In this document: in pieces, positions 1,259-61,440 of the stretch
How positions within the stretch are numbered: position 1 is the stretch's first letter
Layout: the number at the start of each line of letters is the position of its first letter
Origin: Pegea sp. RAD2-039
Taxonomy: Eukaryota > Chordata > Thaliacea > Salpida > Salpidae
Reading direction: 5' to 3'
DNA length: 64,000 nt
Assembly (NCBI GenBank): GCA_034620365.1
Contig: JAQGEQ010000110.1
Coordinates: forward strand, 62,001-126,000
Program-made: the position numbers and the translations under genes
The notes under the pieces: model-generated
What the model was told of the DNA's origin: nothing
The model's input: only the letters and a program-made list of their open reading frames with translations
Database searches by the model: none

Positions 1259-2264
1259 ACAGGATGTGACAGAAGGAGATGTGGGTCCAGTAGTTACTTG
1301 CCACTTCTGTTTTTTAATAAAAACCTTGACAATTCACAAGGTCTAAAGTGGACCTCTAACTTAGTATTTGAAATCCGTTGGTTGTTTCTTTTGATTTCGA
1401 TTATAAGTTTCCTTAGAAAAACATTTTTGTAAATAAATTGATTTAACTTGCTGCGAGGAACCTGAACTTATATAACAAGTAGAAATGAAATCTGCAAAGA
1501 AACTTTGACAAATATTTAGATATATTTATTATCAGTTAAATGCAAGTTTACTTTCTTTTTTATTCAAGCATGTAAGTTGAATTTCTTCTTGATATTTTTA
1601 GCTTTTTATAATTCAAAATATTTTATTCTTAAAGTTTTTTGAGTGTGTCAAATTTCAAAAGTCCTCTTTTCGAAAAAACAAAATTTCATTCTTACAACTA
1701 CAGATTAACTTAACATGATTTAGCAGTAAAAAGAAAACATTTTGAAATGCTAAGATAAAAGATAATTTAATAAGCTTGATTTTATTACAGTTAATAATTC
1801 GCCTTGCAAAAAACCATAAATTATCTGCATTTAAAAACAAGAATTAATTTCATCTAGCTTTCATTGATTGAGCTTAATTCTCGAAAATCGATTTTAACAG
1901 TTTTCAGATGAGTTTAAACTTAAAATATCTTTCTTATGTTTTAAGCTGATGGCTGAAGTGATATTTTCAAAGAATAAAAATAACAAACTAATTTTGTCAA
2001 ATTATTAATTTATATAATTTGCTATTTGCTCACATCTACACTAGAATAGTTTTCCAAAGCTAGATTTTAACCAACTATTACACTAATGACGTCATAATGC
2101 CAATTTTTAGTTGATGGGTGAATATAACAATTATTATCAAATATTTTTCACTTGATTTAATGAGCTAACTGCGTTCTTTGTATAAAGCCGAAATTCAAGT
2201 TATCATGGAAAAAACTATTGAAGTAATTTGATTTTTGTAATCTATTATCAGTTTTAATCTTTAG
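1259..2264. other. Non-coding stretch before the micro-exon gene
   Basis: AT-rich sequence without a supported gene. A short ATG frame with a donor (1540-1571) was considered as a first exon of the next gene but does not keep phase. The interval contains a full CRE palindrome listed separately. Confidence 0.5.
2087..2094. promoter_or_regulatory. CRE-like palindrome TGACGTCA upstream of the micro-exon gene
   Basis: A perfect TGACGTCA lies about 180 bp upstream of the proposed start at 2266. Its 3' side continues TAAT, as at the copy at 12106. TGACGTCA is the known binding site of CREB/ATF bZIP factors. Use as a promoter element here is inference. Confidence 0.3.
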
Positions 2265-2265
2265 A

Positions 2266-5200
2266 ATGCTTAGTGTTGTATTAAGTAAGACTTTTTATAA
2301 GTATTTTAAACAAAAGAAGAGTTTAAACATTTAGTTGCTTAAACTTACGTAGTAAAAACCAGTTTTTTGTGCGCTGGCGTCAGTTCTGCTTCAAACTTTT
2401 CGGTGGCAGAACAGTTGTTTTAAGTCAAATAGAATCATTTCTTACAAAAATTTGATTTATTTGTTGATTATCTGCATATTCAATGAAACTATTAATGTCT
2501 TCTAAATAAGTTTTATGCTACATTTGAAATAAAAGCATAACTTTTTTTAGCTTAAAATTAATAGTAAAAAGTAGTAAAAAAATTAAATAATTGCTGGTAA
2601 TTGCTAAATTTATTAATGGTTATTACATTAGTGAGTTTATACATATAAACATTTTAATTAAACATTTGGGACTTTATGAGGTCTAGAAAGTTTGAGTTAG
2701 TTGGTAGCTATTAAGCATTTCTTACTTTTGGTAACTAAAAAAATATACAAATTAAATGAGTTTTTGCCGAATAATATATTTAGTACTCTTAAATAAACAA
2801 TTTTTGTTCTTGAAAGTCGGCAGTGATAAGAACTTATTTAATTTGAAAAGTACCTAAAAAACATGAAGAAAATAAGTAATTATCTTATTTTAATTTACAA
2901 AATTTAAATCTTTTTAAGGTCTTAAATACTAACTCTGTTGAAGTTGTTGAAAAAACTATTTTCAACTCTAAAGGAGAAACAGGACTCCCTGATCTTTCTA
3001 AGGTAAAGAAAGTTTCAAACTTTTTTTAACTTGTTCTTTAAGTGATGATTATTCCAACTACATGTTCAAAATAAACATAGATTTTAAAACTTACAAATTT
3101 GATCTCAAGTCAAAAAAAACTCTTTTTACCTGTTTAAAATCATTTTTTTAATTCCTCATATATAATAAATAATAATTTGTATTTAGCAGCAGTTTAATAA
3201 ATATTTATCATGCGCTAATTTGACAATTAAATTTTACAGCGGTCTGTATCTAACAACGATGACGTCACTGCTTCTCTTCAAGAAGTAAGTTGTATTTTAA
3301 AACACTGAAGATAAACTTGAAGTTTCTTTTATTATTCAAGGGAGCTGTTATTGGTAAAACTGGAAATTATGAAAAAGTAGCTTTCAATTGCATAGGAGCT
3401 TCTGATTTTTCTGAGGTGATTAAATTCTGAAAAACTTGTATTTTGTTGTCAATTGATTTATATGATGTTTTGATATTAAAAACATATTAATAAATTGAAT
3501 GCTTTTGAAAAAAATGTTTTTAACAATTATTCTAAAGTTATCGATATTGTCAAATATTGTAAAATGTTATTTAACTTTTTTTACTTATTTTCAAGGAACC
3601 AATTTCAAAAGTAAACGAGAAACAAAGTTATTCATCTACAAGCACTTCAGATATACTCCAAGTATGTAGAAATTAAAACATTTGATTTGAGCTATTAGGT
3701 GTTTTTTATAATTGTTTTTAAAGTTTTAGTCACTAAAATAATTATTAATCTTCTTACTAATTTATTACCTCAGATGTAAATTTAAAACCAAAATTTTACA
3801 GCGATCTGATTCTAGTGTTGATGACGTCATTGAGTCTTTTGGGGATGTAAGTTGGTTTTAAACATCGAAAGAAAGAAATTTCTAAAACTTAATTTTATCT
3901 ATTTCTTTTCAAGGGAGGTGTTATTGGTAAAAGTGGGAGTGATAAAAGATCGGTTTTGAACTTTTCAGAAGATACTAAAGCTTCTGATTGTTGTGAGGTA
4001 TTCAAGTTTGTAATTTTCTATTTTAAATGTTTATCGTTTTATTTGATTGGTTAAAACTAATCAACTAACTTTGAAGATGATGATATTAAACATTAATATT
4101 TAACATCTAAAATAAGTATTCAGAAAAGTTATCGATTATATTAAAATATTAAATAAAAATATTCTTATTTATTTTCAAGAAAACCGGTTTTGTTTCAAAC
4201 GGAGCCGATACTAAGAGTTCTGCATCTGAAAATACTCCTGATATTTCTGAGGTAAAAACAAATTGAAATAAATATTCATAGTTTCAAGTTGCTTTATGAA
4301 ATTCTTTCAAAAAAATTCTTATCAATGTTATGACAGCCACAACTCTCAAGTGGAAAATTTTAAAGAAGTCTTATAACAAACTTGATCAAAAAGATCTTTA
4401 CAAATCAATGCTTATTTAAATCATAATTACCTAATACAAAAAAGGAGATACAAAAATAAAAAATTAAGAAATTAACTTCAGAATTAATTCATCAATGTTG
4501 TAAACAATTTTATCAAATTATGTTTTTAAATTTTTTTCTGATATTTCAAATTAGAAAATTTTTTTTGCAAATTTACTCTAAAACTGATTTAACGATCTAA
4601 CTTATCTCACTTTTAAACTCTTTAATACTTATAGATTGTTCCCTCTGTTGTTGATTCTGATGTATCTAATAAAGATGCCCCAACAATTGAAGATGTGAGT
4701 GTTGCATCTTTTTCCTTAAAAGTTTCATAAAATTATTTTGTTTTACTTATGCAAATGTGATTTTAAGTCTTAATGCTTTTGCAAATCAATATTTATTATT
4801 AAAAAATCTTTTACTATTTTTGCAACGATTTCATTATTAATTTAAAATATCTTCAGTATCTAAAAACTGATATTTGGAAAGATCTTTCTGCCGAGAAGAA
4901 ATTACATGGGGACGAATTGATTGTAAGATTTCTAACTTATTTTTTCATTTATTTCTTATACTAATTTTTTAAGTTCAAATAAACTATCTGAAAACAACTT
5001 TTCAGAAACAAACTGAATTTAAGATAAATAAACCAAGTTAAAGTTAACTAGTTATTAAATTTCAGAAACCAACTACAAAACCATCAGAAGAACTTTTGGA
5101 TGAAGAAACAGCAAAAATGGTGGAGGTACTCCATCATATAGTTCATATTTAGCTACACAAATTATTTGTAACTCATATTTATCAGTTTAAAACAAACTAA

Positions 5201-8200
5201 CTTGAAGCTAATCACTATTTTGTTAATATATTTAACTACTGATCTTTAAAACTAGGAGCTTTTGAGTGATGATATCTTCGACTCTGAGCAAAATACAATG
5301 ATAGAAAAAAAAAAGAGAAGAAGGAAAAGATGAAGGAACAGTGTTTGCTTGAATATGAAGCCAAACACAAAAGAGTAACTTTTTTCAAATAAATTGTTGT
5401 TGTATAAGCCTCTTTAGTTTGTTTTAAAATTTTGTAAATTATTGAACCATTTGGTGATTTAAACTTGCTTTTATCTTTTAATGTTTAGTTTTCTAATTTA
5501 CCAAACTTTTAGGTGGTTTTTACTGACCCAATAGTGATTGGGAGGACGGAGCCTATCCTGGTTATGAAATCATTATTGAAGAAGAAGGGTCCAGCCAAAG
5601 TTAGACATTAAATTGTTGAACAACAAACTTAATGAAAATTAATCATCAAAAACCTTTTGTAGGTATCACAAGTTACATCTTATAGTGATGAAGAGTTTGA
5701 TCTGATATCGGATGTAAGCTGATTTAGAAACTGTTATTTATCACCATTTATAATTTGTATATTATTTAAATTAGTTGTTCAATGATTTTTTGAATAAATT
5801 ATCAAAATTGTTTTAACATCATTTTTAAACACTCAGAATCACATTTAAATCATATTAATTTTAAAACAGGATAATTTGGATGATGAAGAGCTTTTTGAAA
5901 AAATTAATTTGTTACTAAAGAAAAAGTCTGAACATAAAGTCAGTATTTAAAATTTATAAATGAAACTTTTAGCAATTGAAATATTAGTGAATATTTTATT
6001 TTTCTTATTATTCAAGTTCTGACGGAAGTTATTTATTACAGCAAGAAGTTAATTTGCATTTCTAAAACATTTCTTATTTTTACAAACTAAATACTTAAAA
6101 TAATAAAATAACTTTTTGCCGAATAAAATATTTAAAACTTTTAAATTCAAAAGATTTGTGATTGAAAGACTGTAGTGATAAGAATTAATTGATTTTTAAA
6201 GTACCTTAAAAATTATTTATAAAACAATTAATTATCTTATATAAAATTGACTAAATTTAAATCTTTCTAAGGTTTCAAGAACTGATTCTGTTGAAGTTGT
6301 TGAAAAAAGCATTTTCAGCTCTAAAGGAGAAATAGGACTCCTTGATATTTCAAAGGTGAAGAAAAATTTAAAATTCCTCAGAAATTAGTTTTTACTTGTT
6401 GATTTAATTTCTTTAATCTTGTAAAACTTTAGAACTAATTTTATATAAAGAAAAATTTTATCAAATTTAGCTTAATTATGTTTTTATTTATTTTCAAGGA
6501 ACCAATTTCAAAAGTAAACGAGAAACAAAGTTGTTCATCTACAAGTGCTTCAGATATACTCCAAGTATGTAGAAATTAAAACATTTGATTTGAGTTTTCA
6601 GTTACTTTTTACAATTATTTTAAAAGCCAAATATCCCAAATAATAATATAGAAGAAATATAACAAAAAACTCACTTAGACACATCTTTCAGAAAATTAAA
6701 ACTTCAAACAAATGTCTTATTTATCTAAATATAACTTAATGATTGTTACTGATGATAAACTATCAACTAATTGACCTAAAATAATCACATTTTACTTAAT
6801 TTCTATAAAAAGTTCAAATTAATAATAATCGGAAATCAAACTTTTTAGGAGTTCATTAATCAACCATCTAATGATGTAATCAATAACAACACTTTGACTT
6901 GTAGCAAGGTAAGTTTTCTTAGTTAGTAGATTAAATAAAGAGAATACTTCTGCTCAAAGTACTTTCAGTAACACCAAAAATCACTTTTTAATTTTTAATA
7001 AGGAGCCTGAAACTACTGTAACTGCAACTGATGGAAAGCTTGAATTGAACCCAAATGTTAGAAGTCCTGACTTATCCAACGTTGTAAGAGTTTTAGATAT
7101 TTTTGTAAACTCTATGATATGATTGAATCAGAAAATAAAATATTTAGTTTTGAAATTAACTTAACAATCTAACTTATTTCTAGCTTAAAATAAATATTCT
7201 TTAAAATCTAATTTAAAAACAATTTAAAAGTTTGTTGAAGTAAAATTTTGGGTAGAATTTATTAGATGTAAATTTAAAAACAAACTTTTACAGCGATCTG
7301 ATTCTAGTGTTGATGACGTCATTGAGTCTTTTGGGGATGTAAGTTGGTTTTAAACATCGAAAGAAAGAAATCTCTAAAACTTAATTTTATCTATTTCTTT
7401 TCAAGGGAGCTCTTATTGGTAAAACTGGGAGTGATAAAAGATCGGTTTTGAACTTTTCAGAAGATACTAAAGTTTCTGATTGTTGTGAGGTATTCAAGTT
7501 TGTAATTCTCTATTTTTATTATTCATTATTTTATGTGATTTGTTAAATAAACCACTAACTTTGAAGATGATGATATTAAAAATTAATATTTAACATCTAA
7601 AATAAGTATTCAGAAAAGTTATCGATTATATTAAAATAGTAAATAAAAATATTCTTATTTATTTTCAAGAAAACCGGTTTTGTTTCAAACGGAGCCGATA
7701 CTAAGAGTTCTGCATTTGAAAATACTCTTGATATTTCTGAGGTTAAAATAAACTAAAATAAATGTTCATAGTTTCAAATTTCTTTATGTAATTATTTCAA
7801 AAGTTTTTTATTAATGTTATGACAGCCACAACTCTCAAGTGAAAATTTTTAAAAAAGTGTAATAAAAAACTTGATCAAAAAGATCATTCAAAATTTTAAA
7901 TAATTTATCTTTTATTTTAATGCATAATATTGATACAAAAGTAATAATTTCTTTCCTTGATCGATTTAAAACTTATTTAAATCTTAATTATCTGGTCTAA
8001 AAGATTAGTTGATAGAAATAGAAAATATAAATAAATAAATTTAATATTATTTATAAATACATTTTTGCTATTACTTTTGAACAGTTATTCTAAGTATTTA
8101 GATATTGTAAAACTTTAATTAATCATGTTTTTACTTATTTTCAAGAAACTAAAATCAATAGCAAATGAGAATTTAAATAAAATATAGGATACTTTGGATG

Positions 8201-9913
8201 ATGAACAGCTTAATGAATATCTTAATTTGTTATTAAATAAAAAGTCTGAGCATACTATCGATTATTAAAAATTATAAATGAAATATTAGTGTATAAACAT
8301 CTATTTTATTGCTCAAGTTCTAAAATTGACCTTATTTATTACAGCAAGAAGTTGTTTTGACACCAAACATTTACAGAAAAAAACTGTCTTCACTTCCCAT
8401 ATCGAAGGTGAAAATAAATATTGTTTACTTTGTGATAAACCTTTAATCATAAAACTTGCGAAGATTAAGTTAATTGCAAACTACCATAAATTAATCATTG
8501 AGTTCTATCTGCTTTTGACTTATAAAACTGAAACAAATCTTGTAACATATTTGAATTTTATCAAATTTTTATCTCGTTGTTACTGCGTTTTAATAATTTG
8601 CTATTTATGTTCCATATATTGGTATTTCTTGATATACTTTATTCAATCTTTTTTTACACAACAATAGGTACCCAAAGTTCAAAACTGCTTTCTGGAAAAC
8701 CCAAAGTTGAAAGCAAACAAACTAGAAGGAAAAATCACAGATGAAAATGAGAATGTGAGATTTCGAACTTTTTGTGTTTAGTTTTGAAACAATATTAGTT
8801 AAAAGTTGTTTTCCAAATTCGTTGTGTTAATTGATTAATGAAATTATTAAAAAATGTTTTTACTCTATAATAAAATATAAGGTGATCTTACAAAGTTTAA
8901 TTTTGTATACTAATTTTTTATCGAAAAATTGTTTCGCTTTAAATTTGAGATTCTAAAAATTAAATGTCTATTTCAACAGATTATTGCAAACACAATAATA
9001 CAACATCCAAATATGATTATATCTGAGAATTACAACAAATTGGTAAATTTTCTTTTGAATGCTTTTAAATAAAATTGCAAACTTGATGTTTAACAATCCC
9101 TTCTACTATTAAGTTTTTGCAAACAGCTAAACTAAAAAGTCCAATTTTAAGGCATTTTTAATATTATTATTAATTTCAGGGCTTTCTTAGACCCAATTAC
9201 AGCTTGGTTTTACCTGAAATTAAAGAGTCAACCACGGTAAGTGTTTTGCTTAAAAAACTTTTATGTCAGTTTGGAAATCATGATGATATTATCTATTTTT
9301 TAATTAAGGTTACAAGCAAATATAATGATGACAACGTCTTGGCCAATGAGATAAAACCAAAGAAAAAGAGTAAAATAAGAAAAGTAAATTATAATTACCA
9401 AATGTTAAGATCATTTAGAAAAACAAATACAAAGTTATTTTTCTATCTTTTTTAAATTGACCTCTAATATTTACTTTTTTAATAGTTTTTTAGAAATCTT
9501 CTGGGTCTAGATAAGAATAAAGTTGTAGCTCTGGTAAGTTCAAAAAGCTTATATTTTAAATATATATTTTAAAGATTTTAAACCAAACCATCAAACTCTG
9601 TTGATAATAATTAATTTGGATTCAGTTTTATTAATAATCTAGCTTATTAGTTTTACTTATAATTGAATTATTATTTCAATATTTATCAAACTAAGTAATT
9701 TATTACAAAAGCTTTAAATACTTTTATGTAAGTTACAAATAAAAGGTTTTTATAAACATTACAGACTCAAAAGGATCTTGAGATTGAAGAGGTAACATTT
9801 AAATAAGAAAATATATTAGCAACAGTTTTTTAACTTTCACTTTTCAAGATATTTTCTTTTATTTATACTTTTTACTTTCATAGAAAATTAAAGTAGCGAA
9901 AAAACCGTCATTA
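2266..9913 (+). CDS. Micro-exon gene of about 30 short symmetric exons, unknown function
   Basis: I do not recognise this protein (about 680 residues). Exons I can support: 2919-3002, 3240-3284, 3341-3415, 3596-3661, 3802-3846, 3914-3997, 4180-4251, 4635-4694, 4857-4922, 5066-5125, 5256-5374, 5513-5599, 5663-5713, 5870-5938, 6272-6355, 6499-6564, 6849-6908, 7003-7083, 7294-7338, 7406-7489, 7670-7741, 8345-8407, 8668-8754, 8980-9042, 9180-9236, 9309-9383, 9486-9533, 9765-9791 and terminal 9884-9913 (TAA). Each internal exon is flanked by AG and GT, and all but one are multiples of three in phase 0. The exception, 5256-5374, is 119 nt. Proposed first exons 2266-2284 and 2353-2378 would give MLSVVLIKTSFLCAG, a weak signal-peptide-like start; this part is uncertain. 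The product is rich in Ser, Asp, Glu, Lys and Asn, with no membrane segment or known domain. The architecture resembles schistosome micro-exon genes, but I see no sequence similarity to them. A poly(A) signal lies at 10221. Confidence 0.72.
2715..4400 (+). repeat. Intragenic duplication block A (exons plus introns)
   Basis: Introns and exons of about 2715-4400 align with about 6075-7885 (block B). Shared intron landmarks are 'tttttgccgaata' near 2760 and 6110, and 'gacagccacaactctcaagtg' near 4333 and 7820. Exon families shared by both blocks are at 2919/6272, 3596/6499, 3802/7294, 3914/7406 and 4180/7670. Block A also carries an extra exon pair (3240 and 3341) that is itself a diverged copy of the pair at 3802 and 3914. 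Confidence 0.85.
5305..5314 (+). other. A10 tract that breaks the frame of exon 5256-5374
   Basis: Read as given, the exon meets TGA at 5331-5333. Its length is 119 nt, one short of a multiple of three, whereas all neighbouring exons are multiples of three. Past the A10 run, another frame stays open through KEQCLLEYEAKHKR up to the donor at 5375. The simplest reading is a one-base deletion in the homopolymer, either a consensus error or a real mutation. Confidence 0.75.
6042..6065 (+). pseudogene. Decayed copy of exon 8345-8407
   Basis: After an acceptor identical to that at 8344, the sequence begins CAAGAAGTT as in the intact exon, then reaches TAA after seven codons with no usable donor. 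The upstream intron also matches (5939-6041 against 8257-8344). It is most likely a dead exon spliced over in the mRNA. Confidence 0.65.
6075..7885 (+). repeat. Intragenic duplication block B (exons plus introns)
   Basis: Partner of block A. The exon at 7294-7338 is identical in translation to 3802-3846 (RSDSSVDDVIESFGD), and its flanking intron is nearly identical, so part of the exchange is recent. Two unique exons (6849-6908 and 7003-7083) occupy the place where block A has no equivalent. This implies gain, loss or shuffling of exon cassettes after duplication. Confidence 0.85.
8146..8256 (+). pseudogene. Decayed copies of the 6499 and 5870 exon types
   Basis: The part at 8146-8187 follows a tcaag acceptor and resembles the EPISKVNEK exon, but stops at TAG. 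The part at 8188-8256 matches exon 5870-5938 (DTLDDEQLNEYLNLLLN against DNLDDEELFEKINLLLK). Where the intact copy has the donor gtcagt, this copy has atcgat, so the 5' splice site is lost. Read through, it ends after IDY at a TAA, so it could act as an alternative last exon. Confidence 0.6.
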
Positions 9914-11081
9914 AACATTTTCAAGTGCTTCCAGTTTATGAGTAAGTTAACATGTTACTTATTTTCTTCTTTTAAAGAGTTATTATAAATGAAATACTTT
10001 ACTCATGTTTTGTTAATAAAAATCAAAAATATTTTCTTATTTAGAAAAGAAGTTCTAAACAAAATCGAAAAGGGATTCAAGTATTACTCCCAAATTATTT
10101 TCTGATTCGCACGCTTTCCTGTTTCAAAAAGTTTCTTTCAAGTCGCGCTTTCCTTTCTTGGAATATCTTTTCAACTCTAACTCAATGATTTCAAGATCGC
10201 CTTTGATAATTTGTCAATGTAATAAAACTCGATTTTAGCAAATATTTAAGTCTGTTTTTATCAGTACACGCCACTCCCCACTATAATCACATTTAATGAT
10301 CATACATGAAAGGATTATTAGATCCAACATACATCTCTAATAGTCTAAAGAGGTTCTATATTAATCATGCGGGAACTATTTCAGAGTTAGTATCTAACTA
10401 TTAAAGACACATAACAAGAATATAACGCTGTTTGCTTTGGGGGACCTCTGTGTTGAGGTTGCTAGGAAAGGATTTTTTCCAAAGTCACAAAGATGAATGA
10501 GTTATGAGGTCCACAAAAAGATTTAGCTAAATATATGACCAAGAAAACACACAAAATTGTTGCCAAATATTTCAGATGTGTGCAAGAGGAAGGTTTCAGA
10601 ATCAGATTTTACCTTTTTAAAAAAATTAAATATGTAAATGAAAAGTTAAACGATATTAACTGAACCTTTATAATTTAAATTTAACTTAACTAAAGTTTGA
10701 ACTTCATGAAAAGTTTTGGATATTTTATTTTTACCTCGTTTATATAAAAAACAAATTTGTAATTATCGAAAATATGGCAAACATTTGATTTCAAACAAGA
10801 ACTATGTTTCTCAATGATATTTGGTTTGATATAATTGACAAAATAAAAAGAGACATCCAATTTTTTGAGTTTTTATTTAATTTATTGAATGAAATAATAT
10901 CAAAAATCGTGAAAACGTTTAAAAGTTTGCAACAATGCAGATTAATAACAGAACGTTCAAAGACTACGAATAAATTAGCATATTCATAAGCACTTTCTTT
11001 GAAAATATTTGAAGAGCTTTCTCTCAAATGTTCTTACATCGAAGCTTTATTGATGTTTGCAAACATCCACAATAAATTACT
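9914..11081. other. 3' flank of the micro-exon gene and convergent gap
   Basis: Contains AATAAA at 10221-10226 as a likely poly(A) signal for the micro-exon gene, and TTTATT at 11046-11051, the complement of a poly(A) signal for the minus-strand gene that ends at 11082. About 10300-10620 has slightly higher GC and may be a decayed transposon, but I see no clear frame. The 78-codon and 61-codon frames at 10791-11027 overlap on opposite strands and look fortuitous. Confidence 0.4.
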
Positions 11082-12035
11082 TCATTTTGCAATTAATAAA
11101 GTAAAGTTAAATGAAGGAAATATTAATTTTGAGGATGCAGCACCCATATAATAAAAAGTTTTGTCAAGAATGGAACTTTTGCAAGAAATGCTAAGTTTGT
11201 TTTTCAAACTTTTCCAAACTGACTTTTTCTGAGGTTTAGGTTCAACAGCCATATTTAATGGTGAAACCCGATTCTTCCTCATAAACAAATTACAAAAACT
11301 AGATGAGCTTCTTGCTTTAATCGGTGTAGTTTTGATGGTTTCTTTAAATGGCATATATTGAAAGCTTTGCTCAATACTTTTCTTTTTTATTTCATTGTTA
11401 ATGCCATCACCTCCAGCATAAAACGATTCAATGCTTTTTATTTCATCTATGGAGTTTAAACTATCACCATCTCCATCACAAGCACCATGAGTATCACTAC
11501 TTTCAGAGCTAGTTGATTTGATGTCTTCAACTAACTCGGGAATACAAGTTGGTATGCTAAGATTTCGTAGTTGATTCTTAAACTCAGCTTTTGTTACAGC
11601 TAAATTTCTATTATTACTCAACTGAATCTTCTTTTTATTTTTCTTAGAACGTTTTTTAGATTTTTTAAATGTAGGTTTCTGTGTGGAAATCCACAAAGGT
11701 GGAAGCCCATTAATATGTTTGTAGGGCTTGTTACAACCAATTTTAAGGTTCTCAAGTGAATAACTTCTTCTTCGAAGCAAGTTAGTTTCTTTCTGACTTT
11801 TCATCACCAACAAGGGTGGAGCAGAGTCTGGTCGAGAAATACCATCTCGATTCAGGTTTATTTTTTCAACATCGTCGATGTTAAAATCTTCCTGAAGACA
11901 AATTTTTTCAAGGGCCAGAAACTCCCATAACTCGATTTTATCTTTGAGTAAACGATTACAATGAGAGCTGACTCTATAATCATTCAAACTTGGCTTCACT
12001 GAAAGACTCATTTTAGAAATTCGTGAAATGCTCAT
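11082..12035 (-). CDS. Orphan single-exon protein, Ser/Lys-rich (317 aa)
   Basis: An uninterrupted 317-codon frame. I do not recognise a family. The N-terminal half has a helical, charged stretch (residues about 28-60). A very basic patch follows (KKSKKRSKKNKKK, about 123-135), a possible nuclear localisation signal. A middle segment is Ser/Asp/Gly-rich (about 175-215), and the C-terminal region is basic and Ser-rich with FxNLFMRKN near 250. There are no membrane segments or signal peptide. An acceptor-like tract ends 14 nt upstream of the ATG, and a poly(A) signal complement lies about 30 nt past the stop, both supporting a real gene. A CRE palindrome is 71 nt upstream. It converges on the micro-exon gene. 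Confidence 0.65.
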   Translation of the reverse strand: MSISRISKMSLSVKPSLNDYRVSSHCNRLLKDKIELWEFLALEKICLQEDFNIDDVEKINLNRDGISRPDSAPPLLVMKSQKETNLLRRRSYSLENLKIGCNKPYKHINGLPPLWISTQKPTFKKSKKRSKKNKKKIQLSNNRNLAVTKAEFKNQLRNLSIPTCIPELVEDIKSTSSESSDTHGACDGDGDSLNSIDEIKSIESFYAGGDGINNEIKKKSIEQSFQYMPFKETIKTTPIKARSSSSFCNLFMRKNRVSPLNMAVEPKPQKKSVWKSLKNKLSISCKSSILDKTFYYMGAASSKLIFPSFNFTLLIAK

Positions 12036-12105
12036 ATGCGTGCCGAATACTAATAATAAAATGTGTTAAAACTTGACGAAAGTATAAAGATGAAATGTTT
12101 AATAG

Positions 12106-12113: not shown

Positions 12114-12469
12114 TAATTGAATTGGGTAACAACTAAGCTCGTTGTCAAAATAGTCAGAGGTATCGACAATCTCAATGAGGTATCTCAAACGCTTGTTTAT
12201 TCTTTTTTAAACATTCTAGTAATATAAACTTTCAGCTATTGTACATCCAATAAAAAAGTTTATCAAATATAATTTTTGATTTCTACCATTGAAGGGTGAA
12301 GTAAATATCCTTCAGTTAAACTTTAATCTTATAATCATTCCATAACAAACATATGCAGTCACATGTAACAAAGTAATCAGTATCTTCTAATTATTTATGA
12401 AATCTTAGTTTGAAGTTATAAAAATATAATTTTATACATTATCAGTTTGTTGTTGAAGAGTGAGGAAGT

Positions 12470-16536: not shown

Positions 16537-17589
16537 TTAAAATGTCAGTTTTTGTTGGAAGATCGATTGTAATTGTTACTGGTGCTTCTAGAGGTTATGG
16601 TTTGGAATTATGTCTTCAATCGATTAAACAACTTGCAAAAAAGTCCCTTCTTATAATGATTAGTAGAAATTATGAAAAACTTCAACAATCTAAAGATCAG
16701 GTTGAAAGTATTGTATCTGATAATGATATTCAAATCATTTCTAGAGTTTGTGATCTTTCTATTCTTGACTCTATTCCAAAACTAATAGAAGATTGTTTGG
16801 TTGATGTGGATGATTATAAAAACTTTTTTCTTTTCAATAATGCTGGTACAATAGGAAATTGTGATCAAAATATTGATTCTATTTTACAAGTTGAAGACGT
16901 TAAAAGTTACTTTGATTTGAATATATCAAGTTGCTTTTTGGTGACATCATTGTTATTAAATAAGTTGAAGAAATCTCAGATTTCAAACAAATTTGTAATC
17001 AATATATCAAGTTTGTTTGCTCTACAACCAACTGCTAGCTTTTCAATGTATTGTAGTGGTAAGGCTGCTCGTGATATGTTCTTTAAAGTATTAGCTGCTG
17101 AAAGGTCTGATGTTAGAGTACTTAATTGGGCACCTGGTCCTATGCCTACTGATATGTTTCAACAAGTTGTAAATCAAAGCTCAAATCGTGAAGTTGTTGA
17201 TCAATTTAAAGAAATGGTTAATAATAAAAGACTTGTTACTTGTACTCAGTCTGTTGGAAAACTGTTTGAGGTTTTGGAAAAGAATGAATTTGTTTCAGGA
17301 GATCATATTGATTACTTTGACATATAGTTTGATAGGTTCTTATTCCTTGCTGTCTGATTATGCTTCTACTATTATTCAATTATATTTATGTTATATATAA
17401 TGCTTTGCTAAAGACTAAGTATTCAAAATTAGTAGTAACTAAAATATGACTTTGTTGCTAACTTATAAATTGTTTGAAAAATGCTATTTTCTTATATTAT
17501 TGCTCATATACACTTCAGTTTAATTTAATATTAATTTTTGATTATTCAATTATAGAAAATATTTCTTTTTGATTTTGCAGATTTTACTG
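16537..17589 (+). repeat. Tandem duplication, unit 1 (SPR-a to MUS81 start)
   Basis: Unit 1 (1053 bp) and unit 2 (19014-20067, 1054 bp) are about 98% identical over coding and 3' flank. Both begin with TTAAAATG at the SPR start codon. Both end just before a second TTAAAATG, which in unit 1 is the MUS81 start (17590-17597) and in unit 2 is 20068-20075. Confidence 0.9.
16542..17327 (+). CDS. SPR: Sepiapterin reductase, copy a (intact)
   Basis: A 261-residue short-chain dehydrogenase, the usual length for sepiapterin reductase. The enzyme uses NADPH to reduce 6-pyruvoyl-tetrahydropterin or sepiapterin in tetrahydrobiopterin synthesis in the cytosol. Visible motifs are the dinucleotide-binding TGASRGYG (13-20), NNAG (99-102), catalytic Ser157 in NISS, Tyr170 and Lys174 in YCSGKAARD, and APGPMPTDM (197-205). 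The C-terminal FVSGDHIDYFD matches the family. I chose ATG 16542 because the second copy begins at the same residue and an acceptor-like tatag ends 23 nt upstream. It is followed 267 bp later by MUS81 on the same strand. Intronless. Confidence 0.92.
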   Translation: MSVFVGRSIVIVTGASRGYGLELCLQSIKQLAKKSLLIMISRNYEKLQQSKDQVESIVSDNDIQIISRVCDLSILDSIPKLIEDCLVDVDDYKNFFLFNNAGTIGNCDQNIDSILQVEDVKSYFDLNISSCFLVTSLLLNKLKKSQISNKFVINISSLFALQPTASFSMYCSGKAARDMFFKVLAAERSDVRVLNWAPGPMPTDMFQQVVNQSSNREVVDQFKEMVNNKRLVTCTQSVGKLFEVLEKNEFVSGDHIDYFDI

Positions 17590-17594
17590 TTAAA

Positions 17595-18839
17595 ATGGGT
17601 AAACCAAAATATTCTAACCATTCATCCAAGGTAAATAGTATTTTTTTTACTTATTTGAAAGAATTTGAAGAGAAAGCTTCATCTAAAGGTTGTAAATCTG
17701 CTAACGGTTATCGAAAATGTATTTCAACTTTAAAAAAGTATCCTTTACCGCTACAAAGAGGTGCTGATGCTTTTATATTGCAAAATTTTGGTGAAAAAGT
17801 TTGTAAAATGCTAGATACTAGACTAGATGAGGATGCTAGAAAAAATAATTTAGAAATAAAAGAATTTCTACAGCTTAACAGAACTGTTGAATCTTGTAAG
17901 TTCTTAAATATCTCCACCCAGCTAAATACTGTTGAAAAAGGAAAAGTAACAAAAGCAAAAAGCATCCCTGTGAAGAAATCTAGCATCACAAATCATAAAA
18001 AACCAACCCATGAGTCTATGATGTTTGATTTGAAGCCAGGTGGGTATGAGATTGTTTTATGTGTTGATAATCATGAAGCGCATGGTGCTGGAGATAAGAA
18101 AACTGTGAAAGATCAATTAAAGAATCTTCAGGTGAAATGGGCTTATAAAAATTTAAGTATTGGGGACTTTGCGTGGGTGGCTAGAGAAAAAACTGATAGC
18201 AATCCAAAAGAACTGATGATTGATTACATCATTGAAAGAAAAACTGCTTCGGATCTTAACCAGTCAATAATAGATAAACGTTTTTCAGAACAAAAGGTTC
18301 GTTTGAAAGACTGTGGGTTGAAAAATGTTATTTATTTGATTGAAGAGTATAAAAAATTGGAACATCAAAGATTGCCACCAAAGACATTGATGCAAGCTAC
18401 TATCAATACTCAAATAATTAATGGCTTTTTATTAAAGTTTACTAATGATTCTAAAGAAACTTTTGAATACTTAGAATTCGTCACAAGAAAAATTGAAGAT
18501 AAATTTAGAGGAAAAACTTTATCCGCTGCATTAGCTATTGATGATAATGAATGCAACCTTTTGACATTTGACAATTTCAACAAATCAGTTACAAAGACTA
18601 AAAACGTAACAGCTACTGAGCTTTTCATCAAACAGCTGATGCAAATTAAAAATGTATCATACGATAAAGCAAATTCTATTACAAAGGTATATCCAACTCT
18701 AAGGAGTTTACTTGAACAATATGAAAAATGTGAAAATGAAAATGAAAGGCGTAATTTAATTTCGAAAGTTAAATTTGGCGTTTTAGGAAAAATGGTTGGC
18801 AAAGCTATTAGTTCAAACATATATTATCAATTTAGTTAG
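17595..18839 (+). CDS. MUS81: MUS81 structure-specific endonuclease subunit
   Basis: A 414-residue MUS81, the catalytic subunit that with EME1/EME2 cuts branched DNA such as 3' flaps, stalled forks and nicked Holliday junctions in the nucleus. The N-terminal helix-hairpin-helix region (about 1-85) contains KYPLPLQRGADAFILQNFG. The ERCC4 nuclease domain starts near EIVLCVDNHE (about 151) and carries the catalytic IIERKTASDL (about 211-220), followed by IIDKRFSEQKVRLK. A C-terminal tandem helix-hairpin-helix region follows. It is shorter than the human protein (about 550), mainly because the central linker is short. The frame is intronless. Acceptor-like 'gattttgcag' ends 14 nt before the ATG and the upstream gene ends only 267 bp away, fitting trans-splicing of a cluster. 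Confidence 0.93.
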   Translation: MGKPKYSNHSSKVNSIFFTYLKEFEEKASSKGCKSANGYRKCISTLKKYPLPLQRGADAFILQNFGEKVCKMLDTRLDEDARKNNLEIKEFLQLNRTVESCKFLNISTQLNTVEKGKVTKAKSIPVKKSSITNHKKPTHESMMFDLKPGGYEIVLCVDNHEAHGAGDKKTVKDQLKNLQVKWAYKNLSIGDFAWVAREKTDSNPKELMIDYIIERKTASDLNQSIIDKRFSEQKVRLKDCGLKNVIYLIEEYKKLEHQRLPPKTLMQATINTQIINGFLLKFTNDSKETFEYLEFVTRKIEDKFRGKTLSAALAIDDNECNLLTFDNFNKSVTKTKNVTATELFIKQLMQIKNVSYDKANSITKVYPTLRSLLEQYEKCENENERRNLISKVKFGVLGKMVGKAISSNIYYQFS

Positions 18840-19013: not shown

Positions 19014-20075
19014 TTAAAATGTCAGTTTTTGTTGGAAGATCGATTGTAATTGTTACTGGTGCTTCTAGAGGTTATGGTTTGGAATTATGTCTTCAGTCGA
19101 TTAAGCAACTTGCAAAAAAGTCCCTTCTTATAATGATTAGTAAAAATTATGAAAAACTTCAACAATCGAAAGATCAGGTTGAAAGTATTGTATCTGATAA
19201 TGATATTCAAATCATTTCTAGAGTTTGTGATCTTTCTATTCTTGACTCTATTCCAAAACTAATAGAAGATTGTTTGGTTGATGTGGATGATTATAAAAAC
19301 TTGTTTCTTTTCAATAATGCTGGTACAATTGGAAATTGTGATCAAAATATTGATTCTATTTTACAAGTTGAAGACGTTAAAAGTCACTTTGATTTGAATA
19401 TATCAAGTTGCTTTTTGGTGACATCATTGTTATTAAATAAGTTGAAGAACTCTCAGATTTCAAACAAATTTGTAATCAATATATCAAGTTTGTTTGCTCT
19501 ACAACCAACTGCTAGCTTTTCAATGCATTGTAGTGGTAAGGCTGCTCGTGATATGTTCTTTAAAGTATTAGCTGCTGAAAGGTCTGATGTTAGAGTACTT
19601 AATTGGGCACCTGGTCCTATGCCTACTGATATGTTTCAACAAGTTGTAAATCAAAGCTCAAATCGTGAAGTTGTTGATCAACTTAAAGAAATGGTTGATA
19701 ATAAAACAGTTGTTACTTGTACTCAGTCTGTTGGAAAACTGTTTGAGGTTTTGGAAAAGAATGAATTTGTTTCAGGAGATCATATTGATTACTTTGACAT
19801 ATAGTTTGATAGGTTCTTATTCCTTGATGTCTGATTATGCTTCTACTATTATTCAATTATATTTATGTTATATATAATGCTTTGCTAAAGACTAAGTATT
19901 CAAAATTAGTAGTAACTAAAATATGACTTTGTTGCTAACTTATAAATTGTTTGAAAAAATGCTATTTTCTTATATTATTGCTCATATACACTTCAGTTTA
20001 ATTTAATATTAATTTTTGATTATTCAATTATAGAAAATATTTCTTTTTGATTTTGCAGATTTTACTGTTAAAATG
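19014..20075 (+). repeat. Tandem duplication, unit 2 (SPR-b plus copied leader of MUS81)
   Basis: Carries SPR-b, the same 3' flank and a copy of the MUS81 acceptor and leader ending in TTAAAATG. After 20075 the sequence no longer matches MUS81, so only the MUS81 start context was copied. One extra A in an A-run near 19958 accounts for the one-base length difference. Confidence 0.9.
19019..19804 (+). CDS. SPR: Sepiapterin reductase-like, copy b (catalytic Tyr replaced by His)
   Basis: Same length as copy a (261 residues), with nine substitutions: R42K, F95L, Y123H, K144N, Y170H, F222L, N227D, R230T and L231V. By my count only about four differences are silent. Codon 170 (19526-19528) is CAT instead of TAT. 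It changes the catalytic tyrosine of the Ser-Tyr-Lys triad (SMHCSGKAARD), while Ser157 and Lys174 remain. In short-chain dehydrogenases this tyrosine is the proton donor, so reductase activity is expected to be lost or very low. The frame is otherwise intact. It may be a new non-catalytic protein or an early pseudogene. It starts 180 bp after the MUS81 stop, and an acceptor-like 'tactttacag' ends at 18960. Confidence 0.88.
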   Translation: MSVFVGRSIVIVTGASRGYGLELCLQSIKQLAKKSLLIMISKNYEKLQQSKDQVESIVSDNDIQIISRVCDLSILDSIPKLIEDCLVDVDDYKNLFLFNNAGTIGNCDQNIDSILQVEDVKSHFDLNISSCFLVTSLLLNKLKNSQISNKFVINISSLFALQPTASFSMHCSGKAARDMFFKVLAAERSDVRVLNWAPGPMPTDMFQQVVNQSSNREVVDQLKEMVDNKTVVTCTQSVGKLFEVLEKNEFVSGDHIDYFDI

Positions 20076-37525: not shown

Positions 37526-40365
<2,840 letters not shown>

Positions 40366-40890
40366 TTGCCCCTCGCCACCATCTCATCGACTTCTCGATC
40401 AATTCAAAGGGCTGATTTTCCAACTTTCGGATTTTAACTTTATTTTTAGATTTAGAATAGTAATTTGTAAATAAGTTTTCTTGTTTCCAACGAACATCGT
40501 CTTTAAGTAATTTTCTTTTCGGCTGCACCTTTGCTAGCTAGCCGTGTTTCAGTAATAAATGTGTCATAGGTTAGTTTCAATGTTTGTTTTATCTACAAGA
40601 GGTTTATGAGGAGCTGCTAGTGTGTCTTTTTTTAATCTCTAAGTTATCTCACTTGGTGTCACGTGACCAGATCTCCCGGTAACATTAAAAATTGTTTGGA
40701 ATAAATAAAATTGAACATGTGCTTGATTTGTGGAATTGATTTAGTTGGCAGATCAGTACTTGATACAGTTTTAAACTCAGGTGCCTTCAGGTCGTCATCA
40801 AATACTCATCAACAGGTTTCAAGAGAATCGAAAATTTTTATTAGTTTTTACAAACACGAAGTAGCTTATACACGAAGCAGCAAACAACGA
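40366..40890. other. Convergent gap between U2AF2 and MCM6
   Basis: Holds the U2AF2 poly(A) signal (40554-40559, plus strand) and the complement of the MCM6 poly(A) signal (TTTATT, 40837-40842). The two 3' ends therefore need not overlap. No gene is seen. Confidence 0.55.
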
Positions 40891-44343
<3,453 letters not shown>

Positions 44344-48267: not shown

Positions 48268-50936
48268 ATGGGTAATAACCAAGGTTTGTCTAATAATAAC
48301 CATGATAGTATGAATAATATATCAGTAAGTTCAAATCAATCATATACTACTCAATCAGTAGTAGACGTTGTTCAGTCGGCTGATCATCAAGTTAAAAGTG
48401 AAAAATTAATCAAGGATAGCCTTATGAAAGTTGAAGATGGTGCAAATGATGAGACAATCAAGGATATTGCTGATAAGTCGCAAGAAAACTTAAATACTGC
48501 GATTATGAATTCTAGGATTAAAACTGAAACTACTTCAATGAATGTCCAGCCTGATGTTGATCATGACAAAAATTTAAAAACTGATTCTTCTTGTAAGAAA
48601 AATGATAAATTCTTAAATGATAAATCTGAAGTTTTAAAAATCAATGTTGCTCAAGATATTTCAACAGAATCCAAAGCTTTAGTTAATCAAGTTGATATAG
48701 AAAATAGTTCTACTACTCAGTCTGAATCACAAGAAGTTTCTAAAGTTGAATCTGAATCACAAGAAGTGTCTAAAGTTGAATCTGAATCACAAGAAGCTTC
48801 TAAAGTTGAATCTGAATCAAAAGAAGCTTCTAAAGTTGAATCAGAATCACAAGAAACTTCTAAAGTTGAATCTGAATCACAAGAAGCTTCTAAAGTTGAA
48901 TCTGAATCAAAAAGCTTCTAAAGTTGAATTCTTCTAAAGTTGAATCTGAATCACAAGAAGCTTCTAAAGTTGAATCTGAATCACAAGAAACTTCTAAAGT
49001 TGAATCTGAATCACAAGAAGCTTCTAAAGTTGAATCTGAATCACAAGAAGCTTCTAAAGTTGAATCAGAATCAAAAGAAGCTTCTAAAGTTGAATCTGAA
49101 TCAAAAAGAAGCTTCTAAAGTTGAATCAGAATCAAAGGAAGTTTCTAAAGTTGAATCTGAATCACAAGAAGCTTCTAAAGTTGAATCTGAATCACAAGAA
49201 ACTTCTAAAGTTGAATCTGAATCACAAGAAGCTTCTAAAGTTGAATCTGAATCACAAGAAGCTTCTAAAGTTGAATCTGAATCACAAGAAGCTTCTAAAG
49301 TTGAATCAGAATCAAAAGAAGCTTCTAAAGTTGAATCTGAATCACAAGAAGCTTCTAAAGTTGAATCTGAATCACAAGAAACTTCTAAAGTTGAATCAGA
49401 ATCAAAAGAAGGTTCTAAAGTTGAATCTCAAAAGAAGCTTCTAAAGTTGAATCAGAATTTTCTAAAGTTGAATCTGAATCACAAGAAGCTTCTAAAGTTG
49501 AATCAGAATCAAAAGAAACTTCTAAAGTTGAATCTGAATCACAAGAAGCTTCTAAAGTTGAATCTGAATCACAAGAAGTTGAATCTGAATCTTTCTAAAG
49601 TTGAATCTGAATCACAAAAAGCTTCTAAAGTTGAATCTGAATCACAAAAAGTTTCTAAAGTTGAATCTGAATCAAAGAAGTTTCTAAAGTTGAATCTGAA
49701 TCACAAGAAGCTAAAGTTGAATCTGAATCACAAGAAGCTTCTAAAGTTGAATCTGAATCACAAGAAACTTCTAAAGTTGAATCTGAATCACAAGAAACTT
49801 CTAAAGTTGAATCTGAATCAAAAGAAGCTTCTAAAGTTGAATCTGAATCACAAGAAACTTCTAAAGTTGAATCTGAAGCTTCTAAAGTTGAATCTGAAGA
49901 AGCTTCTAAAGTTGAATCTGAATCACAAGAAGGTTCTTCTAAAGTTGAATCTGAATCACAAAAAGCTTCTAAAGTTGGATCTGAATTAAAAGAAGCTTCT
50001 AAAGTTGAATCTGAATCGTCAAAGTTAAATTCATCTCAAGATAAGATTAAGTCTTCAAGTGTAACAGAATCAAAGTTACTACATAATTTGACTTCTATTG
50101 CTGATGAGGATAAAACAGCTGCTGCTTCTACTACAGAAGAAGTAGTAGATAAAGAAAGTAGTTTACCTGAACAGTCACAGTCTGTTTCTAGTAAATTATG
50201 TGTCCTAAACCCAACTAACGGAGATAAAGCAGATTTAGCTTCAAATGTCAAAGACCTATCACAACAACAAAATAAAAAAACTGAATCATCTGAAAATGAA
50301 GTGAAAGAAGAAGCAAACACTAGAGGGCGCTTAAGAAATAAAACTCGCTCGTCTGTAGTTGATGAAAGCGTCCCTTGTTCAGATGGTAGAAGCATAAAAG
50401 GAAGGCCTAGAAAGCAGTTAAACTATTGTGAGTTCAACGACTTGGATGTTGATATATCTGAAACTTTTGAAGAGGTAGACTCGTCGAAAAAAAGAGGAAG
50501 ACCTCGGAGTTCGAAATCTGTGTCTCATCGGAGCATATATAAAGTGAAGACGGCTTATGAAAACATCTCAACTGAAGTGAAGATCAAGAGCAAGCGAGGA
50601 AGACCTCGTAAGTTACTCAATTACTCTGAGGTTACCTGGGATAGCGATAGCTCCTTTGATCCTAGTGATTATGATGATTATGAGGATGATGAGGATGTAA
50701 AGAAGAATAAAAAATTGAAGACAGATAAGTACGATTGTACTTCGACAACAAAAAATAAAACAAAAGCAACTAGAAGATCGAGTAGAAAAAGGAATCAGAG
50801 TTTTCCTGTTTCATCGATTACTTCTACTAAAAATAAAACTTCTCTGAAAAGAAAGAGACCTAAAAAAGCTTCTGATGAAGATTATAGTTCTAGTGACGAG
50901 GTGATTCCAAAAAGAGCAGCTATCAAAAGATTTTAG
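48268..50936 (+). CDS. AT-hook protein with acidic decapeptide repeat array (frame disrupted)
   Basis: I do not recognise a family. The unique N-terminal part (48268-48720, about 150 residues) is Ser/Asn/Asp-rich. The middle is a 30-bp repeat array coding SESQEASKVE (48721-50009). The unique C-terminal part ends at 50936 and has three AT-hook-like motifs: KGRPRKQ near 50400, KRGRPRS near 50490 and KRGRPRK near 50595. They are followed by Asp-rich and Lys/Arg-rich segments (KRKRPKKASDEDYSSSDE). AT-hooks bind the minor groove of AT-rich DNA, so a chromatin protein is a reasonable guess. The two unique ends are in different frames because the array contains five net single-base shifts. This may reflect assembly errors or a broken gene. 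An acceptor-like 'ctaag' lies 2 nt before ATG 48268. Confidence 0.6.
48721..50009 (+). repeat. 30-bp tandem repeat array, about 43 units
   Basis: The common unit is 30 bp, reading SESQEASKVE in the frame of the unique ends. Variants alternate Q/K at position 4 and A/T/V/G at position 6. Irregular units are at 48901 (28 bp), 48929 (16), 49095 (31), 49426 (26), 49452 (21), 49563 (21), 49584 (22), 49666 (29), 49695 (27), 49872 (21), 49893 (24) and 49917 (33). There are no spacers, so it is not a CRISPR array. Confidence 0.9.
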
Positions 50937-59354: not shown

Positions 59355-61440
59355 AACGTGAAAGAGGGTGCCTCTCGCCAACACACATTCTCACAAATGA
59401 TAACTTATATATATGATTAGGTTGAAAATATAGAAAGAAAAAGATGCAGCACATAGCATTTCAGTAGGCCTCAAAGTATATAACAGTGAGCAATTGCATA
59501 GAATGTTAATAATATAAAAAATGAAAAAATCACAGTTTAGAAATGACAATATTGGCAATATTATAACGGTTCAACTTCTGCTTGAACAACGCTAGTGACT
59601 TCGACATGGCAATGTCTGATGGCAGCTGATTCCATGTATTAATTATGCGGTATGAGAAAAAATTTACTCTGATTAATGTACCCGGTGATATGAGCTTATT
59701 AAGATGTAATGTGTGTCGTCTGAGTTGATATAACTTAAGGGAAGGACTAATTGAAAAGAAAGCATCGAAATAAGGTCAACTAAATTGTGGATAATTTTGA
59801 AAATAAGAGTTAAGTCATATTTAATCCGTCGGATTTCCAAAGTATCTAAATTGAAGAAGCTGAGACAAAGTTTATAACTATTGTAATTAATATTAAGTTT
59901 CTTGTAAACTAATCTCGTAAATGTTGCCTGAACAGATTGGATTTTTTTGATATCACTAACTTGATATGGCATCCATGTACTAACATTGTATTCAAGAATC
60001 GGACGTACGTATAATTTGAAGAGATCGATAAATAAGTATGGATCCTTAGAATTAAAGGTATAAATAATAATGTAAACACAAGATGATTGACTTTGCAAAG
60101 ATTTTGGAAACATAAATGTGAAAGCCATTTAAAGTCAGATGATAGAGTAATGCCAAGGTTTAAGACCCTATATATTCGTGAAATAATAAATCCATTGATC
60201 TCACACTGCTTTCCACAATCCGAACTTCCGGGGCATCTAATCGGGGATAGTTTGTTTAATTGCTTCCTGATCTTGCCAGACTACCAAAGATAAAATGAGA
60301 AGATTGCAAATGAATAGATGAATATGATACCAGCTCGGCTGAAAGACTTCGAATATGATAAGAATGATTCAAAAAGGAAGAAGACACAGTTTAAAAAAAT
60401 TCAGTTGAATAAAAATTCAGTTGAATAACCTTTATAAGGAACATTAGTTTAAGGAGTTTTCAGCTGGTTTACCGTAGAAAACTGTAAGTTCAGACTTTGT
60501 GAGATGGGTTCTGAGCTGCCAACTCATAGACCAGTTTTCTATAGTGTGTAGTGCAGTTTGAAGTTCTGAAAGATTACAAGATAATAGCTGGATGTCATCC
60601 GCATACACATACACACGAGAAGGGGACCCAGAATGGAACCTTGAGGAGCACCACTGGTGATTTAGATAGAAGAAGATAATGATATTTCAACACAAGTTTG
60701 TTGAATTCTACCTGATAAGTAATCTTCAATACACTTTAGGATAAAGCTGTTGATTTTTAATTTTTGTAAAACATTAACGAGTTTGTTGTGTGAGACAGAA
60801 TCAAGGTAGTAGAGGAAATAGTTTTCTTGAAAACAAAGCTGGGATCTGATCAGAGGTGTTGGAAACTGATAATTTTAGAGAAGAAATGGCCTTAGTTACC
60901 ATATCAACCAATATATCAAGATCTATTATTTCAGAAATATTTCTGAAAATGTCAGAGTAGAAAAGAGAAGTATTGCCATCATCTGTTATAAAAATGCTAT
61001 TAAATTGATTGTTTCCATCACAAGCTGGTTGCTGTTATCAAGTAAGGGAGGTATTTGAGATCTCACCCTAAGCTTGTGATTTATGAAGACAAAAAACGTT
61101 TTATTGCTAGGTGAAGATAAGACTGCACTCTCTCTTCCTAAATAGAAATTAGAAATATATATCTTGTAAACTATATTTGGCTAAATGTGTTTTTTTGTAG
61201 ACTCAATTCACTCTTTAATGTTGTTAGTAAACCGTGAGTAAATAGTATTGATTTTTACGGTAGAGTTGAAAACATAAATTCAGTTAGCAACTGATAGAAA
61301 CTTGTTAATACCATCATATTTCCCATGATAGAAGTTTCGTTTGCTTGGAGTTTTAACGTTCATGGAAAAGTTTGATGAAGCTTGAATACAATCATGTTGA
61401 GATCGCATGTTAGAGTGAATAATTTACTTTAAAAAGTATG
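59355..61440 (-). mobile_element. LINE copy 3 (CR1/Jockey-like), broken
   Basis: On the minus strand, in order from high to low coordinates: the linker also seen in copies 1 and 2 (about 61380-60910), then reverse transcriptase motif SGAPQGSILGPLL (near 60640). The catalytic YVYADDIQLL follows (YADD = complement of 60594-60605), and then the thumb/C-terminal part KLYVRPILEYNVSTW and MPYQVSDIKKIQSVQATFTR (about 60040-59900). The sequence between the GAPQGS and YADD motifs is shortened and the frame shifts, so the copy is dead. The 3' end near 59355-59395 (complement reads GAGAATGTGTGTTGGCGAGA then GGCACCCTC) matches the tail of SINE 1. Confidence 0.8.

Follow-up and report, generated by a model that had tools for sequence, protein, structure and literature searches.

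A multi-copy gene family with arrays of short phase-0 exons in the salp Pegea

Collagen, elastin and titin PEVK are encoded by genes that have grown by tandem exon duplication. Schistosomes and tapeworms have another exon-rich architecture, that of micro-exon genes (MEGs); in schistosomes, alternative splicing of such genes yields protein variants. The accessible part of PMC7653826 asks of an MEG at least seven exons, 50% or more of which are below 70 nt and a multiple of three in length, and also considers the run length of short exons; the accessible parts of two further papers give schistosome MEG exons as approximately 6-36 bp (PMC8673669), ascribe a signal peptide to all MEG products, and describe these genes as apparently confined to platyhelminths (PMC4350168). 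Here, we describe a gene of many short exons in a 64,000-nucleotide stretch of the genome of Pegea sp. RAD2-039 (assembly GCA_034620365.1, contig JAQGEQ010000110.1, positions 62,001 to 126,000), hereafter the window, which is C236:62001-126000 of the 105.7-Mb genome. Judged from genomic sequence, it probably belongs to a lineage-specific, multi-copy tunicate gene family that encodes a co-regulated, probably intracellular modular protein and evolves by turnover of exon cassettes. A search of the open-licence literature found no tunicate micro-exon gene family.

The gene is present in many copies. A DNA search of the genome with positions 2900-4500 returned 104 matches. There are eight close copies, 85-93% identical across about 9 kb (the window copy, W; A to D on C236; E and F on C21; G on C25), and a set of distant copies, approximately 75% identical along most of their length, on C41, C45, C62, C180, C232, C233, C243, C244, C265 (two), C371, C372, C385, C386 and C387. 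We read 15 copies, namely all eight close copies and seven distant ones (C45, C62, C265 twice, C243, C385 and C386), of which C265b and C385 were read only as far as before exon K. In a protein search of the genome, in which 98 of 365 candidates were scored, exon matches among the matches listed (at least 159) fell only on contigs of known copies.

On direct reading, positions 2266-9913 contain segments flanked by AG and GT and open in phase 0. A sequence-only reading had counted at least 28 of these, and each of the 28 internal exons of our model (2919-9791, 27-119 nt, phase 0 throughout) is matched, with frame and borders kept, in at least one of the seven other close copies; 25 of the 28 align in all eight. 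The frame is broken in W at exon l and in F at the second r, and three copies have lost a donor: B at s, D at the second a and F at the second k. With one first and two last exons, the window copy has 31 coding exons, one of the internal exons being frame-broken. With all introns except the last in phase 0, dropping any internal exon would leave the frame intact, as had been proposed. The description of about 30 "tiny" exons holds for their number and not for their size: median exon length is 66-69 nt in the copies read, so most are short rather than micro. The one segment noted as departing from multiples of three is exon l, at 119 nt. Of the seven other close copies, six have an exon l of 120 nt and one has an exon l of 144 nt; relative to copy A, the window exon is short of one base in an A run, and it is thus a one-base lesion or an assembly slip.

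Several tests indicate that these exons are real. In a mechanical scan of positions 2501-10000 against 100 first-order Markov sequences, strict phase-0 segments numbered 13 on the forward strand and 0 on the reverse in 7.5 kb, compared to a Markov mean of 1.8 and maximum of 5; in seven further 7.5-kb stretches taken from the window, the count was 0-6. Exon GC content is 35%, versus 20% in introns. Comparison among the copies is an independent and stronger test. Across 25 exons in the eight close copies, 54, 61 and 80 of 549 columns vary at first, second and third codon positions, respectively (9.8, 11.1 and 14.6%), compared to 25.1% of 4667 intron columns. The acceptor AG is retained in 208 of 208 cases and the donor GT in 195 of 200 (terminal exon excluded). 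Three of the five misses are true donor losses, one arose from scoring donor 7080 instead of 7083, where GT is present in all eight copies, and one reflects an in-frame insertion in copy G. Pairwise identity among close copies is 95.6% in exons and 90.2% in introns, and gap lengths are divisible by three in 32 of 46 exon gaps, compared to 154 of 1159 intron gaps. The 14 remaining exon gaps are the number expected from the lesions in W and F, each compared with seven copies.

The two ends of the gene are constant. The gene had been thought to start at ATG 2266; the first coding exon instead lies at 2205-2222, and its ATG, frame and donor are kept in all 15 copies, 14 of which begin with MEKTIE and one with MDKTIE. 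At the 3' end, a donor (ATGA|gtaagt at 9941) joins an AG at 10043-10044, with the stop codon TAA at 10056-10058; donor, acceptor and stop are kept in 12 of 12 aligned copies, and the C-terminus is KKKF in 11 and RKKF in one. An unspliced C-terminus running through 9990 was discarded, since copy D and each of the four distant copies aligned lack its stop. A patch at 2340-2400 (cttacgtagtaaaaaccagttt) is also conserved and falls outside the gene model.

The sequence-only reading had also proposed a secreted protein with the leader MLSVVLIKTSFLCAG. In 11 of 15 copies, this leader either is absent or could not be spliced: ATG 2266 is absent from all seven distant copies, and the acceptor of the second leader exon, acgtag, is changed to acgtaa or acgttg in four of the eight close copies (A, D, F and G). 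Copies encode roughly 450-720 amino acids. Five assembled proteins of 452-687 amino acids average -0.54 to -0.71 in hydropathy, reach at most 1.11 over any 19 residues and contain no hydrophobic segment, including near the start; the conserved start MEKTIE is hydrophilic. Given an unconserved leader, a hydrophilic start and the lack of a hydrophobic segment, secretion is unsupported. The suggestion that the protein matches nothing known was borne out. Two homologue searches, both of which pre-filter on shared words, gave no match at E 0.001 among 7992 candidates and, with a two-row alignment, none at E 0.1 among 7990. A PDB search gave no match, and a profile search, which the earlier reading had proposed for the joined protein, matched neither two assembled copies nor the neighbouring reading frame to any Pfam family up to E 1. 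Rfam had no match in the window.

The locus resembles schistosome and tapeworm MEGs in its many short symmetric phase-0 exons, tandem families, fast-evolving parts and lack of a known domain. It differs from them in that its exons are mostly 45-87 nt rather than 6-36 bp, without a run of four below 70 nt, and in its non-flatworm host, the lack of a visible signal peptide, a strongly shared promoter and a constant tail. Set against the accessible text of PMC7653826, all 15 copies have 19-31 exons and 54-61% of exons that are short and divisible by three (the last two and broken exons excluded), but the longest run of exons below 70 nt is two or three in every copy, and the exon following K, at 58 nt, is not divisible by three. 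Each copy has only one or two exons of at most 36 nt, the upper end of the size range in the accessible part of PMC8673669, and the signal peptide and platyhelminth restriction of the portion of PMC4350168 at hand find no counterpart here: there is no conserved leader or hydrophobic stretch near the start, the window's MUS81 groups with Styela, and GT2 and GH6 occur on C14. By the criterion as it stands in the accessible part of PMC7653826, the gene is not a micro-exon gene, and the suggested membership of the schistosome MEGs is not supported.

The host evidence comes from two sources. The window's MUS81 (17595-18836) lies in a clade with the tunicate Styela clava (99/96; 8 of 26 rows), adjoined in the tree by P0001 at 82% identity. 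C14 carries matches to both GT2 (72156-72689, E 4.7e-15) and GH6 (74494-74718, E 1.2e-4, 27.5 bits, cut-off 27), 1.8 kb apart on one strand; among 14 control genomes, GH6 was matched in none and GT2 in 11. According to the accessible part of PMC7464555, GH6 within Metazoa is present in tunicates and doubtful elsewhere, and a GT2-GH6 fusion is the tunicate CesA. On these markers, the host is a tunicate and not a flatworm.

A generator of diversity comparable to MEGs, in which combinatorial skipping of symmetric exons would draw a large pool of secreted or exposed variants from one locus, would account for the uniformly symmetric phase-0 internal exons, for fast-changing exons, and for lesions that are confined to single exons and could be bypassed by skipping. 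We consider it quite unlikely, given the fate of the leader, the absence of a hydrophobic segment, and the scarcity and short runs of small exons; moreover, exon duplication alone also necessarily yields symmetric exons. The diversity that is demonstrated lies between gene copies, and exon skipping within a copy is possible.

Diversity between copies takes the form of whole exons. The number of exons per copy, counting exon 1 and leaving aside the last two, is 19-31, the lowest being the partly read C265b with at least 19. With each letter standing for one exon type and a bracketed l for a broken frame, the copies read, for example, abcdrgkiyp(l)vsn-adefrgk-QPIFTRK in W, adefrgkiyplvsn-adefrgkn-QPIFTRK in A, argyplvsn-abc-QPIFTRK in C386 and argyplvsn-abgkiyplvsn-abc-QPIFTRK in C265a. 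The a-k block is doubled in close copies, and the y-n block (y-p-l-v-s-n) is doubled in four of the seven distant copies read (C62, C265a, C243 and C385). In a tree of r-g-k cassettes, 16 from close copies split from five distant ones (100/100), which indicates that the close-copy doubling, or homogenisation, postdates the subfamily split. Together with the differing doublings, this tree indicates that exon turnover continued after the split.

Cassette doubling and identical intron phase would also be expected of an intracellular structural or elastic protein built from repeats, with symmetric exons produced by duplication as in collagen, elastin and titin PEVK, whose internal introns share one phase and whose exon number varies. 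Consistent with this, one exon corresponds to one repeat unit for the pairs c-g and b-r (z 5.0 and 3.9). However, these are the only two of 276 exon-type pairs that are clearly alike (next z 3.4), most exons share no common unit, and the core exons are unique and constrained; the locus belongs to a multi-copy family whose exons are mostly distinct and whose cassettes change, in contrast to a single long repeat. We regard a repeat-built protein as unlikely.

The promoter-like region is shared by copies of both subfamilies. Block 2110-2232 occurs at 21 places (eight close and 13 distant copies) with 96-100% identity, and all 21 share contig and strand with family exon matches, the position at the head of the gene having been read in 15; C233 and C244 have exon matches and no promoter-block match. 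Its part at 2117-2204 is approximately 100% identical between subfamilies, compared to approximately 26% divergence around it. Sharing of this promoter suggests that the copies may be co-regulated. Over 2117-2222, about 100 bp are near-identical across subfamilies with the start codon included, and TATAAA lies just 24 bp upstream of the ATG.

Copies are arranged in tandem, inverted and contig-end arrays. At C265:839001-867000, two distant copies lie head-to-head, inverted, near a contig end, and C45, C62, C243, C385 and C386 are 16-26 kb each with one gene copy apiece; the C265 pair and these small contigs probably reflect an unresolved array. Such arrays, the co-amplification of an unrelated intronless gene on three contigs, and damage in six of 15 copies are what would be expected if the family were a decaying or selfish amplicon, spread by segmental duplication and consisting mostly of pseudogenes with a residual exon signal. 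Ampliconic families, such as co-amplified sex-chromosome genes, likewise have many similar tandem or inverted copies with two unrelated gene types co-amplified. Against decay stand exons less variable than introns, the complete retention of acceptors, exon gaps mostly in threes, the conserved promoter, and nine of 15 copies in which no lesion was found, including C265b and C385, read only to before exon K. We judge a decaying amplicon distinctly improbable.

Constraint differs strongly among exons. Between close and distant copies, dN/dS is lowest in K (0.06), v (0.08), P (0.16), R (0.19), p and l (0.24), and Q and T (0.26), intermediate in s (0.36), I (0.62), a (0.80), y (0.81) and i (0.91), and highest in g (1.18), k (1.30), n (1.31), F (1.41) and r (2.05); the short exons make these values noisy, and the pairs are not independent.

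Several observations weigh against a functional, perhaps largely disordered modular protein. Overall dN/dS is 0.50 over 56 close-distant pairs (0.41-0.71), which is weak constraint, and the exons were chosen partly by protein likeness, which lowers dN. Third codon positions are only slightly more variable than the others, and codon usage, which does not tell exon from intron sequence in a genome as AT-rich as this one, is uninformative as a coding test. At least one exon is damaged in W, B, D, F, C62 and C243, with one or two exons affected in each: besides the lesions in close copies given above, P is damaged in C62 and l in C243, which also has exon K inside a deletion. Many copies may therefore be decaying. 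In a charge-hydropathy test, two of the five assembled proteins fall on the disordered side and three on the ordered side, all near the border.

We propose that a near-invariant promoter heads the copies, and that each transcript would run from the MEKTIE exon through an array of approximately 19-30 short phase-0 exons to a constant basic tail. Because the introns share the same phase, unequal exchange can add, remove or swap whole exons with the frame intact, and it has done so: the doubled cassettes differ between the subfamilies. The product is most likely an intracellular, polar protein that may be largely disordered; it may be nuclear, given the basic KPKKKSKIRK tail, which resembles a nuclear signal. 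Function would reside in a constrained core made up of exons p, l, v, Q, P, T, R and K, and the fast-changing exons a, r, g, k and n may act as variable spacers or binding repeats.

Table 1. Features of the window copy and its convergent neighbour (positions within the window).
Feature	Position	Strand	Basis or remark
Promoter-like block, TATAAA at 2181	2117..2204	+	near-invariant upstream of copies
Exon 1, MEKTIE, donor gtaatt	2205..2222	+	kept in 15/15 copies
Exon a (first)	2919..3002	+	close-copy alignment, exon strings of 15 copies
Exon b	3240..3284	+	close copies: only W, G; recurs in distant copies
Exon c	3341..3415	+	close copies: only W, G; recurs in distant copies
Exon d (first)	3596..3661	+	in all 8 close copies by exon strings; alignment matched only G
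Exon r (first)	3802..3846	+	close-copy alignment, exon strings of 15 copies
Exon g (first)	3914..3997	+	close-copy alignment, exon strings of 15 copies
Exon k (first)	4180..4251	+	close-copy alignment, exon strings of 15 copies
Exon i	4635..4694	+	close-copy alignment, exon strings of 15 copies
Exon y	4857..4922	+	close-copy alignment, exon strings of 15 copies
Exon p	5066..5125	+	close-copy alignment, exon strings of 15 copies
Exon l, 119 nt, frame broken at A run	5256..5374	+	close-copy alignment
Exon v, among most constrained	5513..5599	+	close-copy alignment, dN/dS 0.08 close-distant
Exon s	5663..5713	+	close-copy alignment
Exon n	5870..5938	+	close-copy alignment
Exon a (second)	6272..6355	+	close-copy alignment
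Exon d (second)	6499..6564	+	close-copy alignment
Exon e	6849..6908	+	close-copy alignment
Exon f	7003..7083	+	close-copy alignment
Exon r (second)	7294..7338	+	close-copy alignment
Exon g (second)	7406..7489	+	close-copy alignment
Exon k (second)	7670..7741	+	close-copy alignment
Exon Q, constant tail begins	8345..8407	+	close-copy alignment, exon strings of 15 copies
Exon P	8668..8754	+	close-copy alignment, exon strings of 15 copies
Exon I	8980..9042	+	close-copy alignment, exon strings of 15 copies
Exon F	9180..9236	+	close-copy alignment, exon strings of 15 copies
Exon T, basic end KPKKKSKIRK	9309..9383	+	close-copy alignment, exon strings of 15 copies
Exon R, dN/dS 0.19	9486..9533	+	close-copy alignment
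Exon K, 27 nt, dN/dS 0.06	9765..9791	+	close-copy alignment
Penultimate coding exon, in phase 0, out phase 1	9884..9941	+	58 nt, GTAAGT donor in 12/12 aligned copies
Last coding part, KKKF + TAA	10045..10058	+	acceptor and stop in 12/12 aligned copies
AATAAA, candidate poly(A) signal	10221..10226	+	kept in 12/12 aligned copies
Convergent neighbour, intact intronless reading frame, 327 codons stop to stop	11082..12065	-	co-amplified with close copies

The neighbouring reading frame occurs at 21 near-full-length places with 87-100% identity, all on C21, C25 and C236; eight adjoin a copy of the short-exon gene and about eleven lie well away. None of nine full-length places read has an inner stop, and kinship between the short-exon protein and the neighbour protein was not seen (probability 0.8%). 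A transposable-element boundary at 12456 was considered and rejected: in the other aligned places the shared sequence extends beyond this point, the window copy being the one that differs, and comparison with 1301-1900 revealed no terminal inverted repeat. Elsewhere in the window, a short-chain dehydrogenase gene is duplicated at 98.6% identity (16537-17597 and 19014-20075), flanking MUS81, and approximately 43 copies of a 30-bp coding repeat (like SESQEASKVE) occupy 48721-50017, where the open frame appears to shift several times. GC content reaches 40% over 40001-44000, compared to 20-31% in other 4-kb stretches; the gene there presumably encodes an MCM helicase. Broken frames at 845-1333 and 59673-60280, both on the reverse strand, resemble LINE retrotransposon proteins, and neither has a Pfam match.

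A more speculative extension, which we think very unlikely, is the independent origin in a chordate of a diversity system akin to micro-exon genes: more than 20 co-expressed copies, each with up to approximately 30 interchangeable phase-0 exons, would both exchange cassettes with one another and skip exons internally, and would thereby supply a wide range of proteins, either intracellular or of gametes. If the family is expressed as modelled, it would extend a micro-exon-like architecture beyond flatworms to a vertebrate relative, and would do so without the secretion by which it is explained in parasites. Its shared promoter, constant ends and swappable middle would make it a clean test case for the evolution of exon arrays under equal intron phase, and for whether skipping rescues damaged exons.

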